A stretch of DNA of 22,204 nucleotides from a virus. A program made the position numbers and the translations under genes. Under the pieces are notes generated by a model. It was not told where the DNA came from, ran no database searches, and saw only the letters and a list, made by a program, of their open reading frames with translations. Location: IMG/VR virus record IMGVR_UViG_3300046369_000854, positions 1 through 22,204 of that record. The stretch is one strand, 5' to 3'. This document shows, one piece after another, positions 550 through 20,185 of this stretch. Position 1 is the stretch's first letter; the number at the start of each line of letters is the position of its first letter.

Positions 550-1006
550 AGATATCCTTGATTGTTTTGTCATCATACCCATGATCTTTTGCCATTGCTT
601 TTAGATCTTCTTTACTGTTTATGTCTATTAAGTTATTAATGTCCTCTGCCTTCATATGCGGAAAAGTTTCATAAATAAAATCAAATACTTTGCTTTTCTT
701 CTTTTTACTATTAGGCGGTTTTATATAAGGATGAAACTGTACCGACCCAACACCACATACACTTAATAATAACCATTGCAGTTCAGGATGTTTACTTACT
801 TCACTAAACTGATAATTTACACATTCATTAGTCATAAAAATATAATCTGCGGCATTTTTACCTTGCACACTACTGCAATACCTCATCATCATCCAGGCAC
901 TAAAGGCCTTTTTACCTTCCTCTGACAGATTATTATAAAACTTTCTGTCTTTTTTGTCAATCGCAGACATAATATCCTTTAATGGTATTTGCGGTTTCTT
1001 AGCCAT
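539..1006 (-). CDS. 62: Clamp-loader small subunit, gp62-like
   Basis: In T4, gp62 joins the gp44 ATPase to form the clamp loader that places the gp45 sliding clamp at primer ends. This 155-residue protein resembles the gp62 version of marine T4-like phages: an N-terminal PLKD...DKKDRKFYNNL region, a central HPELQWLLLS segment, FHPYIKPP, and a lysine-rich stretch before a helical C-terminus. It is somewhat shorter than T4 gp62 (187 residues). Its ATG overlaps the apt stop in a TAATG junction, with GGAG upstream. It is unusual that no gene 44 lies directly upstream; apt takes that place. The assignment rests on remembered sequence similarity, not on a catalytic motif, since gp62 has none. Confidence 0.72.
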   Translation of the reverse strand: MAKKPQIPLKDIMSAIDKKDRKFYNNLSEEGKKAFSAWMMMRYCSSVQGKNAADYIFMTNECVNYQFSEVSKHPELQWLLLSVCGVGSVQFHPYIKPPNSKKKKSKVFDFIYETFPHMKAEDINNLIDINSKEDLKAMAKDHGYDDKTIKDIFGK

Positions 1007-1563
1007 TATTCTCCTTCAAATTCAATTAATGCTTCAACATTAAAACCTTCGCCTTCTATTATAGCACGTCCACCTAAATCGGGCAAGTCTATCACGGCCA
1101 GAATTAAAATATTTTCTTTTGGAACATTCCAACATTGTGCTATAAGGCTAGCCAATGCTTTTGCTGTTCCACCTGTTGCAATTAAATCGTCTACAATAAC
1201 AATTTTATCATTTATATTTAAATCTGAATTTCGTTGTATATGTAATGTTGCTTCTCCATATTCCAATTTATAATTTCTTTGATATGTAGGGTTAGGTAAC
1301 TTACCAGGTTTTCTTGCTAAAATTAAAGGCAATTCCATATCTCTTGCTAGAGGAGAGCCAAATATAAACCCTCTGCTTTCTATTGCAACAATTTTAGTAG
1401 CATTAAAGGACATACATGCACTACTCATACTTATTAATGCTTTGTTGAACGCTTCTGGGCGTTCTAACATGCTTGTGATGTCTCTAAACTGTATTCCTTC
1501 TAGAGGAAAGTCTGGTACTGTTCTTATACTATCTTTTATGTCCATAAGTCTATCTGTTCCCAT
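1006..1563 (-). CDS. apt: Adenine phosphoribosyltransferase
   Basis: The enzyme joins adenine to PRPP to give AMP and pyrophosphate (purine salvage, cytosol). The 185-residue protein follows bacterial Apt closely along its whole length: FPLEGIQFRDIT near residues 19-30, ESRGFIFGSPLA at 62-73, ARKPGKLP at 83-90, and the PRPP-binding motif IVIVDDLIATGGT at 121-133 with its two acidic residues intact. Nothing essential seems lost, so it is probably active. The first ATG overlaps the end of metK by 28 bases; an ATG at 1545 (MDIKDSIR) fits the family's N-terminus about as well, and neither has a strong ribosome binding site. Next to metK it may recycle adenine released from spent S-adenosylmethionine products; that link is inference. 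Confidence 0.95.
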   Translation of the reverse strand: MGTDRLMDIKDSIRTVPDFPLEGIQFRDITSMLERPEAFNKALISMSSACMSFNATKIVAIESRGFIFGSPLARDMELPLILARKPGKLPNPTYQRNYKLEYGEATLHIQRNSDLNINDKIVIVDDLIATGGTAKALASLIAQCWNVPKENILILAVIDLPDLGGRAIIEGEGFNVEALIEFEGE

Positions 1564-2627
1564 GTCATACTTGTTTTACCAAAATGACCATAGTTTGTTG
1601 TTTCTGTTAAATCTAAATTAAATAAATCAAATCGGTCTATAATACCTTTAGGTGTGAGATCAACTTTGCTAATAATTTCTTCTGCAATGTCTGTTCTTAC
1701 TTCGCCATCAGCATATACATAAACACTAGTTGGTTCTTTTATACCAATTGCATAACTTAATTGTATAGTACAATTTTCTGCTTTGCCACTTGCAACTACG
1801 TTTTTTGCTAAGTATCTTGCCATGTAGGCGGCCGATCTGTCTACTTTAGTACAATCTTTACCACTAAAGGCACCGCCACCATGTGGAGCATAACCACCGT
1901 ATGTGTCTACAATAATTTTTCTGCCTGTAATACCACTATCTCCATCAGGACCGCCAATAACAAATCTACCAGTAGGATTAATAAGCCATACAGTTTTAGA
2001 ATTAAATTTATCTTCTACTGTAGGCAATATAATATCCATTACACGTTCTCTAACCTGTTCTATACTAAGGTCATCACTATGTTGAGTACTACAAACAACT
2101 GATTTAATATCAATAGGTTTTCCAACACTATCATAATTAAATGTAACCTGTGCTTTACTGTCAGGCCCTATCCAATCAGCACCGTTACGTCTGGCTTCTT
2201 CTAATGCTTTTAGTATCTCATGACTGTAATAAATTGCACTAGGCATATAATTATCTGTTTCATTACAAGCATATCCAAACATTAATCCTTGATCTCCTGC
2301 ACCAAAGTCATCCGTACCTAGAGCAATATCAGGACTTTGTCCGTGTAGTTCGTTGTATATAGACATTTTTGCCCAATGAAATCCGTCTTGCTCATAGCCA
2401 ATATTTTTAACAACATCTCTTACAATGTGTTCAATAATATCTTTATCAAACTTATCGCTTTTATATTCTCCTGCAAGTGTAACCATATTAGTTGTAACTA
2501 AAGTTTCAACAGCGGCTCTGTGATTAATATTTTTGTCTATTAAAAATGTTGCAACGGCATCTGATATCTGATCTGCTACTTTATCAGGATGACCACTGCT
2601 AACACTCTCACTTGTAAATTCGTACAT
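1536..2627 (-). CDS. metK: S-adenosylmethionine synthetase
   Basis: MetK makes S-adenosylmethionine from methionine and ATP, releasing phosphate and pyrophosphate. The 363-residue protein is slightly shorter than the usual 380-400 and carries the family signatures: SVSSGHPDKVADQISDA near 8-24, the GAGDQG motif at 109-114, GPDGDSGITGRK at 226-237 and the phosphate-binding GGGAFSGKD at 250-258. The C-terminus ends in the typical YGHFG region. GAGGT lies just upstream of the ATG. It follows the 94-residue gene by three bases and overlaps apt. A phage MetK would raise the methyl-donor supply for methylation or another SAM-dependent step; no methyltransferase is visible in this window, so the client is unknown. 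Confidence 0.97.
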   Translation of the reverse strand: MYEFTSESVSSGHPDKVADQISDAVATFLIDKNINHRAAVETLVTTNMVTLAGEYKSDKFDKDIIEHIVRDVVKNIGYEQDGFHWAKMSIYNELHGQSPDIALGTDDFGAGDQGLMFGYACNETDNYMPSAIYYSHEILKALEEARRNGADWIGPDSKAQVTFNYDSVGKPIDIKSVVCSTQHSDDLSIEQVRERVMDIILPTVEDKFNSKTVWLINPTGRFVIGGPDGDSGITGRKIIVDTYGGYAPHGGGAFSGKDCTKVDRSAAYMARYLAKNVVASGKAENCTIQLSYAIGIKEPTSVYVYADGEVRTDIAEEIISKVDLTPKGIIDRFDLFNLDLTETTNYGHFGKTSMTWEQIDLWT

Positions 2628-2630
2628 ATT

Positions 2631-2915
2631 TTACCTCATTTTTAAATTTAATATTTCTTCCCATTCTGCATATTCTGTTTTATTAAAAGAGTTCACAGGA
2701 AACTGAGGAGGTTCAACCTTTAACCGCCTTTTTCTTTTAAAAAGTTTTTTAAACCAAACTTTTTTGCCAGTTATTGTTTTTTTAGGAGTAAAAGCAAAAG
2801 TTTTTTCCCACTTAGTTGTAATTAAGTTGTCTTCGCTATTAATAAAATCTCCTGCAATGCCTCCATTTTTCAACTGTGGATACCTCGTATATGCAGGATG
2901 GTTATAATTCTCCAT
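2631..2915 (-). CDS. Small basic protein of unknown function
   Basis: This 94-residue protein is not one I recognise. It has a tyrosine- and proline-containing start (ENYNHPAYTRYPQ), a strongly basic middle (KKVWFKKLFKRKRR, about residues 51-64) and a mixed-charge tail. There is no signal peptide or membrane segment. It overlaps the end of the kinase-nucleotidylyltransferase gene by 14 bases and ends three bases before metK, so it is clearly in the same transcript. GAGAAAGG precedes its ATG. The basic patch could bind nucleic acid, which is a guess from charge alone. Confidence 0.65.
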   Translation of the reverse strand: MENYNHPAYTRYPQLKNGGIAGDFINSEDNLITTKWEKTFAFTPKKTITGKKVWFKKLFKRKRRLKVEPPQFPVNSFNKTEYAEWEEILNLKMR

Positions 2916-3705
2916 CCTTTCTCATTTGCTCCCTGATTTTGGTAGCACTAATTTTTTGCGTTTCCTCATCTAAAACTTCTTCTTCAATTTTATAACCTAC
3001 ACCTCTACCATATGTAATATTCATAATGTTTGGTACAGGGAAACATCTGAACTTTCCGGCGTGTTCGGCCAATGCTATTTCAATGTTTTCACATATCTTA
3101 TCCACTTGCCAAGGATTGTCGTCAGTTAAAGGCATATCTCTTACAAGTAATGCTACTTGCCCATGTTTTGCCAATGCTCTTTCAAATAACTTTTGATGTC
3201 CTTCGTGCCATGGTTGAAATCTTCCTAACATTTGTGTAGTTGGTTGTTTAGGTTGGAATTCATGATCTTTAATATCAACAGCAATCAACCTTGCCCATTC
3301 TTCAACTTTTTCTTCAGTCCACCATTCATCTTTTTTTATAATAGCATTAACTTTAACACTATCCATTGTGGGCTTTTCAAACATTGCATTTGTGTCTTCG
3401 TATCTGCCTTCTTCAATTGTGTCCATCCAAATAACATACTCAGGAACATGTTGCTCACGAAGTTGATTTGTAGGACAAACAAAATCTGCTACACCATATT
3501 GTCCTTTAGCAACACTTTTACGAACATAATCTCGCATACGCAATGCTTGTCTTTCTCTGCCTTCTGGAGAAAAGTCCCAATCATTAAATGTTTCTCTTAT
3601 TTTATCTGCGTTATGCCAATCTGCATTACCTAATATCTCTACTAGTTTCTCTGCAAGAGTAGATTTACCTGAGCCAGGTAATCCAAAAATTAATACTCGT
3701 TTCAT
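2902..3705 (-). CDS. Fusion of APS-kinase-like P-loop kinase and nucleotidylyltransferase
   Basis: The protein (267 residues from the chosen start) has two domains. Residues 1 to about 150 form a P-loop kinase: GLPGSGKST at 8-16, then ADKIRETFNDWDFSPEGR (34-50), VADFVCPTNQLRE (72-84) and a YVIWMDT strand (90-96), spaced as in adenylylsulfate (APS) kinase. Residues 157-267 form a small HxGH nucleotidylyltransferase: GRFQPWHEGH at 161-170 and ISATKIRE at 252-259, closer to NMN or cytidylyl transferases than to ATP sulfurylase. If the first half is a true APS kinase it would make PAPS, the donor for the sulfotransferase at 19502-20185. The start at 3705 makes an ATGA overlap with the upstream gene and has GGAG upstream; an ATG at 3723 would add six residues. 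The substrate of either half is unproven. Confidence 0.85.
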   Translation of the reverse strand: MKRVLIFGLPGSGKSTLAEKLVEILGNADWHNADKIRETFNDWDFSPEGRERQALRMRDYVRKSVAKGQYGVADFVCPTNQLREQHVPEYVIWMDTIEEGRYEDTNAMFEKPTMDSVKVNAIIKKDEWWTEEKVEEWARLIAVDIKDHEFQPKQPTTQMLGRFQPWHEGHQKLFERALAKHGQVALLVRDMPLTDDNPWQVDKICENIEIALAEHAGKFRCFPVPNIMNITYGRGVGYKIEEEVLDEETQKISATKIREQMRKDGEL

Positions 3706-4472
3706 CTGTTTTCTCTCTCCCATTCTGCATTTTCATCGAACTCTGCAAGATATTCATCAATGTTTTCATCGATGTTTTCCTGAGTGTCGTGCCACTTAGT
3801 ATTTAACCAGCCTACTTGAGCATCATAACTTTTACCGGTGCTGTCCATGTAATCATAATCACATTCTAATTCAACTTTGTCATAAAAAACTGCATCAACA
3901 AATTCTGCTAGATTTGTCTCTACAACACCATATCCTAATTTAAATTCATCAAAGTCTTCGCCGTCTGTTTCAACAAACCAAGCACCAAAGCCACCTTTCT
4001 CTGAACTATGAAACATAAGTACAGGTACATATTCATTACCTTCCTCATCCTTTTCATTTATTAATTCAGGTTGGTCATCAGTACTAAAGTAGCCACCTTC
4101 TCTGCCATAAACATGAATTGCTTCTCCTTCATATACTTCATTATCGTGATCCCAATCGTCTGAACCATCTGCTGGAACTTCGTATACTGTAAATCCACCA
4201 TCTGCATAGGCACTATTAATGTGTTCAAAGTTATCATTTTCCCACATATAAAAGTCTTCACCAGGCATTGCAGGATGTGGTATTCCATCTGGATCTAATA
4301 ATGCATCAGAGGTTTCTTCCTCTTTTGGTTCCCAATCTTCTGCTTCTAAAACTGCGTCAACAAGTTCATCTTGTTTATCTGCATAATAACTTACAAATGC
4401 AGGATTAACTTCTCCTAAAACTGCCTCTCCACCGTATCTGCCGCCTTCTATTCTAAATTTTCTTTTTGCCAT
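3702..4472 (-). CDS. Highly acidic protein of unknown function
   Basis: This 256-residue protein has about 70 Asp/Glu residues by my count (roughly 27 percent) and many aromatics, but no membrane segment, signal peptide or known catalytic motif. The first 20 residues (MAKRKFRIEGGRYGGEAVLG) are basic and glycine-rich, unlike the rest. I have an impression of similar proteins in marine T4-like phages, without a known role. Its ATG overlaps the stop of the membrane protein upstream and GGAGG precedes it, so it should be well translated. The charge would suit a DNA mimic or a protein binding a basic partner; this is inference from composition only. Confidence 0.75.
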   Translation of the reverse strand: MAKRKFRIEGGRYGGEAVLGEVNPAFVSYYADKQDELVDAVLEAEDWEPKEEETSDALLDPDGIPHPAMPGEDFYMWENDNFEHINSAYADGGFTVYEVPADGSDDWDHDNEVYEGEAIHVYGREGGYFSTDDQPELINEKDEEGNEYVPVLMFHSSEKGGFGAWFVETDGEDFDEFKLGYGVVETNLAEFVDAVFYDKVELECDYDYMDSTGKSYDAQVGWLNTKWHDTQENIDENIDEYLAEFDENAEWERENR

Positions 4473-19388: not shown

Positions 19389-19505
19389 ATGGAAAATATA
19401 AAAGTAAGAGAACCACAACTGCCTGTAGAAGGCGAATACACACTTTGCAATAAAGGTGAAGTTGCTGTATATAGAAATGGGGAATGGGTAAGACCTAATA
19501 AATGA
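19389..19505 (+). CDS. 38-residue peptide coupled to the sulfotransferase gene
   Basis: The peptide is MENIKVREPQLPVEGEY... ending in AVYRNGEWVRPNK, with no membrane segment and no family I know. The ATG at 19389 was chosen because it follows the late box by five bases; an ATG at 19371 would add six residues but would put the box inside the gene. Its TGA stop overlaps the sulfotransferase ATG (ATGA), so the two are probably translated together. A role as a small partner or merely as a leader peptide for the enzyme is open. Confidence 0.55.
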   Translation: MENIKVREPQLPVEGEYTLCNKGEVAVYRNGEWVRPNK

Positions 19506-20185
19506 AAACTTTCATTTTAAGTCTGGGAGTTCAGCGATCAGGCACAACTTGGCTTAGAGGATTTTTAAATAATCTACCTAATACAGACATGGGATTTAAA
19601 AAGGAATACCATTATTGGGATTCAGATAAGGAATTTTTTAATAATAAGGAATATATAACTTATTTTGATAGTTTAATTAAAGATGATATTTATAGAACCG
19701 GGGACATCACACCAAGGTACTCTTTATTAGATATTAATAAACTTAAAGAAGCAAAGGACTGTATAGAAGGTGCAGGATTTGATCTTAAAATTGTTTTCAC
19801 AATGAGAGACCCTGTACAAAGAGTATATAGTCGTGCTAAAAAGATGTCTACAAATGACCCTGAAGGCTGGATGTGGTCTAATAAGAATATATTAGAATAC
19901 AGGCAAGATTACAAAGGCATTTTAAATAATATAGATAATGTATTTAATAAAGAAAATGTATATATAAGTCTTTACGAAAGTTTTTTTACAGAGAAAAACA
20001 TAAGAAAATTTTGTAATTTTATAGATTGTGAATTCCGGCATGAAGATTTGTTAAGGGTTCCCAGCCATACCACTATAAAAAGACCCTTATCTTTAGATAC
20101 TAAAGAATATTTTTTGCAAGAGTATAAGAAGACCTATGAATACTGTGGAGAAAGATTCCCGGAAACTAAATTACTCTGGGGATGA
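19502..20185 (+). CDS. PAPS-dependent sulfotransferase
   Basis: Sulfotransferases move a sulfuryl group from PAPS to a hydroxyl or amine of a sugar, lipid or protein. The 227-residue protein has the 5'-phosphosulfate loop QRSGTTWLRG at 11-20 and the 3'-phosphate-binding MRDPVQRVYSRA at 101-112 (Arg102, Ser110), at the usual spacing. It is small, as expected for bacterial or viral members. It lies on the plus strand against all its neighbours and converges with gp16, overlapping its 3' end by 15 bases, which suggests later insertion. The acceptor is unknown. The APS-kinase-like fusion at 2902-3705 may supply PAPS; that is inference. Confidence 0.88.
   Translation: MKTFILSLGVQRSGTTWLRGFLNNLPNTDMGFKKEYHYWDSDKEFFNNKEYITYFDSLIKDDIYRTGDITPRYSLLDINKLKEAKDCIEGAGFDLKIVFTMRDPVQRVYSRAKKMSTNDPEGWMWSNKNILEYRQDYKGILNNIDNVFNKENVYISLYESFFTEKNIRKFCNFIDCEFRHEDLLRVPSHTTIKRPLSLDTKEYFLQEYKKTYEYCGERFPETKLLWG

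Follow-up and report, generated by a model that had tools for sequence, protein, structure and literature searches.

A gene on a T4-like marine phage fragment (IMG/VR record IMGVR_UViG_3300046369_000854; the whole analyzed stretch of 22,204 nucleotides is referred to as the window) joins a kinase-like domain to a small HxGH nucleotidylyltransferase (NTase), and raises the question of which substrate the two domains activate. The gene most probably encodes a compact bifunctional PAPS synthase, in which the NTase would make APS and the kinase would make PAPS; no biochemistry is available for this assignment.

Gene Boundaries and Domain Architecture

The open reading frame extends from 2902 to 3723 on the minus strand (273 amino acids). 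The upstream ATG at 3723 is, judged from the alignment, an unlikely start because all close homologs begin at residue 7 of the frame; this corresponds to position 3705, which is preceded by GGGAGAG and which the initial annotation had correctly taken as the start (table 1). The profile of phrog_10255, a family from Stenotrophomonas and Xanthomonas phages whose sole functional assignment is "kinase", matches the protein over its full length (E = 3e-53, 181.8 bits, residues 7–268 of the 273-residue frame). An alignment of 27 diverse proteins contained 34 invariant columns out of 267, and an AlphaFold2 model of the whole protein based on 27 homologs reached a pLDDT of 93.4 and a pTM of 0.89. The fusion described in the initial annotation was confirmed as an APS-kinase-like P-loop domain followed by an HxGH domain of approximately 119 amino acids, and the sequence contains the P-loop GLPGSGKS and APS-kinase-type motifs in the first half and both GRFQPWHEGH and ISATKIR in the second. 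Structure prediction and fold comparison, which it had proposed as a check, returned an APS-kinase-like first half and a NadM/PPAT-like second half.

Table 1. Positions of the fused gene, its domains and motifs, and the sulfotransferase gene within the window.
Feature	Residues	Position	Strand	Basis
Fused APS-kinase-like/HxGH adenylyltransferase gene	267 aa	2902..3705	(-)	
Kinase domain	1-148	3262..3705	(-)	Pfam APS_kinase above cut-off, PDB profile, Foldseek
P-loop GLPGSGKS	8-15	3661..3684	(-)	Sequence; invariant or nearly invariant
APS-site motif NADKIR...DWDFSPEGRERQALRM	32-57	3535..3612	(-)	Aligned to DGDNIR..DLGFS..R..N..RR of APS kinases
Shortened lid RYEDTNAMFEKP		3370..3405	(-)	Aligned to GFTGIDAPFEEP of a haloarchaeal canonical APS kinase
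Small HxGH adenylyltransferase domain	149-267 + stop codon	2902..3261	(-)	NadM profile, model, Foldseek (PPAT/NadM)
GRFQPWHEGH, nucleotide-binding motif		3196..3225	(-)	G, R, Q, P, H, G, H invariant
RDMPLTDDNP	189-198	3112..3141	(-)	R189, N197, P198 conserved
PNIMNITYGRGVGY	225-238	2992..3033	(-)	Signature loop YGRxVGY
ISATKIR (ISxTxxR motif)	252-258	2932..2952	(-)	Conserved motif
Sulfotransferase, possible PAPS user, not adjacent		19502..20185	(+)	PF13469 E 9.5e-10, PF00685 E 7e-9

The N-terminal half passes the Pfam cut-off for APS_kinase (PF01583, 25.2 bits, cut-off 21.1) and falls short of the NCBIfam apsK equivalog cut-off (18.7 bits, cut-off 138.7). A search of the PDB with the family profile matched APS kinases at E = 1.9e-12 and NadM at 1.7e-8, and the APS-kinase domains of human PAPSS1, several of them with APS bound, ranked at the top of the Foldseek matches. 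The initial annotation would have been refuted by a better match of the first half to another kinase family, and none was found. Polynucleotide kinase was rejected on a poor structural match (rmsd 19–20 Å, 19 Å for T4 Pnkp, compared with 1.6–4 Å for APS kinase), and a NadR kinase identity on a score far below its cut-off (TIGR01526, 33.6 bits, cut-off 341). Within the APS-site motif, D34, R37, F45 and R56 are invariant among the 27 aligned proteins and R50 and Q53 nearly so. The APS-contacting pattern of D, R, F and R (DGDNIR...LGF....R) is met by D34, R37, F45 and R50, the counterparts in the alignment of the APS-binding D-x-x-R, F and R residues of known kinases. The kinase lid is approximately 19 residues shorter than that of the canonical kinase from haloarchaea, and a Q stands in the place of the APS-kinase residue N83.

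The C-terminal half scores 20.4 bits against Pfam CTP_transf_like, slightly under the cut-off of 21, and its profile matches NadM at E = 3e-10. A model of the isolated domain (pLDDT 91) retrieved PPAT and NadM alike in Foldseek. No match to the ATP-sulfurylase domain of Sat (PF01747) was found in the protein up to E = 0.1, and Sat was not among the best 50 fold matches of the NTase. This bears out the earlier impression that the second half is closer to NMN or cytidylyl transferases, in the form of an NMN/PPAT-like rather than an ATP-sulfurylase-like fold, and the domain would therefore be an analog and not an ortholog of ATP sulfurylase. The curated NadM cut-off is not met either (TIGR01527, 18.1–20.5 bits, cut-off 181), and the segment separating the PNI motif from ISxT, which helps NadM to bind NMN, is shorter in the NTase.

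Distribution and Gene Neighborhoods

At least 80 closely related viral loci contain the fused gene, and a wider viral scan returned more than 460 candidates; among 80 viral loci from the wider scan, the two domains were fused in 28 and split in 46. Fused proteins are also encoded by Stenotrophomonas and Xanthomonas phages, some SAR11 contigs, Rhodospirillaceae, Bradyrhizobium, a Microvirga plasmid and haloarchaeal plasmids. In most of the SAR11 contigs that were fetched, in SAR86 and in other marine alphaproteobacteria, the kinase (~136 amino acids) and the NTase (~124 amino acids) are separate genes that usually adjoin or overlap. The family is thus no chance assembly, since it recurs in viral loci and in cellular homologs from SAR11, SAR86, other Alphaproteobacteria and haloarchaea. 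A few loci contain the kinase only, and in one locus a second, kinase-only copy (38% identity, L030:8816-9232) lies directly downstream of the fused gene.

Sulfation genes were observed beside the family in both phages and cells. In 13 phage contigs a sulfotransferase gene is located directly upstream of the kinase on the same strand, usually followed by the NTase, by 2OG-Fe(II) oxygenases and by a large, recurring gene of structural appearance. Overall, 15 out of 17 such phage sulfotransferases lie no more than 1.5 kb away from the target (binomial 4e-8, although contigs that are related do not count as independent). Four phage cassettes combine the sulfotransferase and PAPS-synthase genes with as many as three 2OG-Fe(II) oxygenases; their products might first hydroxylate and then sulfate a molecule of the virion or the host.

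The window carries its own sulfotransferase gene, 16 kb from the target, with the PAPS-binding motifs QRSGTTWL and RDPVQRVYS, and a single further viral contig contained it, as an identical copy. An adjacent sulfotransferase is absent from this phage lineage, and of 50 related viral records none contained a PF13469 sulfotransferase above cut-off. A family of 194-amino-acid proteins encoded near the target in eight sister contigs (PRTGG/FRTGS start) was considered as a sulfotransferase and is not claimed as one, having no Pfam match. Within the lineage, the synteny of the target with metK, an apt-like gene and uvsW is conserved; metK (S-adenosylmethionine synthetase) and the adenine-phosphoribosyltransferase-like gene (1006-2627, minus strand) are next to the target in approximately 60 sister loci. 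A 568-amino-acid reading frame with a TonB-dependent receptor plug domain (PF07715; 6972-8678, minus strand) adjoins uvsW, and its family is present in 40 of approximately 80 sister phage loci, an unusual case of a phage-encoded outer-membrane receptor-like protein. An anti-defense role was considered and rejected, as PADLOC gave only weak matches.

Among the cellular loci, haloarchaeal plasmids carry a sulfotransferase gene upstream of the fusion, with a YqcI/YcgG gene nearby, and the kinase halves of the full-length haloarchaeal homologs (159.6 and 147.8 bits) pass the apsK equivalog cut-off of 138.7. A CysQ-type (PAP) phosphatase is encoded near the pair in eight marine alphaproteobacterial contigs, directly upstream where inspected, and in one contig the phosphatase just upstream passes the CysQ equivalog cut-off. 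A TPR-sulfotransferase gene is adjacent and divergent in one genome, three others carry a sulfotransferase within approximately 4 kb on the same contig, and at a further locus the downstream genes are CysH-like and of the inositol-phosphatase family.

On a Microvirga symbiosis plasmid the gene order is nodH-target-nodP-nodQ, and the encoded NodQ lacks an APS-kinase domain. A check of 22 conserved positions in 187 NTase domains identified a loss of catalytic motifs in this one protein only (G21S, P50R, R86L, V88L and R110Q), beside NodPQ. The changes turn HxGH into HESH, NP into NR, GRxVGY into GLxLGY and ISxTxxR into VSPTAVQ and leave the kinase motifs intact. The evidence from decay is a single case, and Bradyrhizobium and Rhodospirillaceae retain an intact NTase despite a CysD elsewhere in the genome.

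The same Microvirga NodQ/CysN (L085:12181-13770) ends in a DUF2061 domain, at the C-terminal position that an APS kinase normally occupies in NodQ. Other phages show the order kinase-DUF2061-NTase, and overall this small membrane protein is encoded between the kinase and the NTase or directly beside the fused gene at nine phage loci. Its place at the NodQ C-terminus suggests a role of DUF2061 in sulfate activation.

Absence and Displacement of the Canonical Genes

Among 34 genomes that contain the family, Sat was found in three, CysD in three and a sulfotransferase in 23. A sulfotransferase with neither Sat nor CysD was present in 18 of the 34, which agrees with the reported absence of cysDNCHIJ and sat from Ca. 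P. ubique (PMC5069961). On a complete SAR86 chromosome with two sulfotransferases, the target is the only APS-kinase match.

Displacement of the canonical genes was observed in the Pelagibacterales. Of 197 genomes, 151 contain the NTase and 11 the canonical CysNC, which adjoins CysD in the genomes inspected, and none contains both (Fisher p = 4e-8). An rpoB tree of 50 Pelagibacterales genomes requires six changes of the CysNC label; five of the six are forced by well-supported branches, so that CysNC arises at five or more points of the tree and the carriers are not one clade. A test of exclusivity on independent pairs did not reach significance, with too few pairs. Presence of a sulfotransferase was not significantly associated with the target across the Pelagibacterales genomes (115/151 with and ~30/46 without, p = 0.18), and approximately 21 genomes contain a sulfotransferase and neither route, many of them perhaps incomplete. 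The CysD of several Pelagibacterales genomes is extended at its N-terminus by approximately 195 amino acids without a Pfam match (e.g., L201:7398-8885).

A Predicted Compact PAPS Synthase and Its Alternatives

The most economical mechanism leads from sulfate to APS to PAPS within one small protein or gene pair. The C-terminal HxGH domain would convert sulfate and ATP to APS and PPi, and the N-terminal domain would phosphorylate the 3'-OH of APS, giving PAPS for sulfotransferases. The initial annotation had suggested phosphorylation followed by nucleotide addition; the likely order is the reverse. The evidence from gene order, from fusion and from the displacement and decay of genes strongly favors its option of a minimal analog of PAPS synthase. 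Homology and domain identities, folds, conserved motifs, gene linkage and the displacement of canonical genes were observed directly. Both reactions and their coupling are inferred, the formation of APS from ATP and sulfate from context only. It is likewise an inference that a sulfotransferase of the phage or its host uses the PAPS, and the sulfated target would probably be a surface glycan or a virion component. Counting against the PAPS-synthase reading, the NTase is unlike Sat in fold searches and offers no assignable sulfate site. The lack of PF13469 in the 50 sister records, the non-significant association and the genomes with neither route in the Pelagibacterales, the low power of the pairs test, AprBA in SAR11, and the intact NTase alongside CysD in Rhodospirillaceae and Bradyrhizobium weigh in the same direction.

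Alternatives are retained because SAR11 has AprBA and the NTase resembles NadM. The APS kinase might be real while the substrate that the NTase adenylylates is some other small acceptor, with APS supplied by AprBA from sulfite and AMP in SAR11 or by a host ATP sulfurylase. The NadM/PPAT-like fold and the few kinase-alone loci would be compatible with this, and Ca. P. ubique does have AprBA (PMC5069961). The explanation is nevertheless unlikely: phages, SAR11, SAR86 and haloarchaea have the two domains fused or side by side, decay of the NTase catalytic motif is confined to the copy beside the NodPQ ATP sulfurylase, and CysNC and the NTase are mutually exclusive in the Pelagibacterales.

It is highly improbable that the pair activates another anion or group in a PAPS-like manner (e.g., phosphoramidate) for a non-sulfate transferase. 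APS-kinase homologs with other substrates are known, such as Cj1415 of Campylobacter (phosphoramidate), and the shortened lid and the N83-to-Q replacement leave room for one, but Pfam places the neighboring transferases among the PAPS-dependent sulfotransferases, the other partners are CysQ and genes for Nod-factor sulfation, and the haloarchaeal fusion has a canonical APS kinase.

An NAD salvage of the NadR kind in reversed order (kinase to NMN, NMN adenylyltransferase to NAD), for instance as anti-defense NAD+ repair, is rejected as hardly credible even though NadM proteins are the closest solved relatives of the NTase, phages carry NadR and NadM (PMC9503650) and a NADAR-domain gene lies directly upstream of the kinase-NTase gene in one phage (Stenotrophomonas phage Bhz60), since the scores are an order of magnitude under the cut-offs (NadR 33.6 against 341, NadM 20.5 against 181), the NadM segment between PNI and ISxT is missing, the kinase matches APS kinase and has its substrate motif, and the neighbors are sulfotransferase, CysQ and NodH/P/Q genes.

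With the PAPS-synthase reading preferred, it is likely that sulfation in SAR11, SAR86, haloarchaea and many phages draws its PAPS from an unrecognized third class of ATP sulfurylase (NadM/PPAT-like, ~120 amino acids), which occurs by itself or in a fusion with APS kinase. Such an enzyme would have no sequence relation to CysDN and would be a distant superfamily cousin of Sat. If this is true, lineages described as lacking sulfate activation would make PAPS, the sulfotransferase and PAPS-synthase genes of some phages would together form a complete sulfation cassette, and the family's "cysC" annotations in viral and marine genomes would indicate sulfation and not assimilatory sulfate reduction. 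SAR11 are among the most abundant ocean bacteria and most of their genomes sampled here have sulfotransferases; a compact PAPS synthase would resolve the contradiction of sulfotransferases without cysDNC and sat (PMC5069961). Literature searches on the fusion, on a novel ATP sulfurylase, on SAR11 sulfotransferases and PAPS and on haloarchaeal PAPS turned up no account of this enzyme; subscription papers and preprints were outside its scope and a prior description is possible.

Comparison with Known Systems

Animal PAPS synthases (PAPSS1/2) likewise place an APS-kinase domain before an adenylyltransferase of the HxGH superfamily in one chain, and the same overall reaction is predicted for the window protein. 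They differ in that the second domain of the window protein is NadM/PPAT-like, with approximately 119 amino acids and no PF01747 match, and in the kinase lid, which is approximately 19 residues shorter in the window protein; with 267 amino acids compared with ~620, this protein would be a markedly smaller single-chain source of PAPS. CysD/CysN(C) and the rhizobial NodP/NodQ occupy the same predicted position in the pathway. The pair replaces CysD/CysN(C) in SAR11, and in Microvirga the family kinase fills the missing kinase slot of NodQ, but neither CysD, a PAPS-reductase-fold enzyme, nor CysN, a GTPase, is homologous to the small NTase. The archaeal NMN adenylyltransferase NadM and PPAT share the fold and the GRxQPxHxGH and ISxTxxR motifs with the window NTase, which nevertheless stays under every curated cut-off, lacks the PNI-ISxT segment and has its own conserved loop, YGRxVGY. 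NadR also combines a P-loop kinase and an HxGH NTase in one chain, whereas its order (NMN adenylyltransferase, then ribosylnicotinamide kinase) is the reverse of that in the window protein, its kinase belongs to a different family and its TIGR01526 cut-off is far from being reached.
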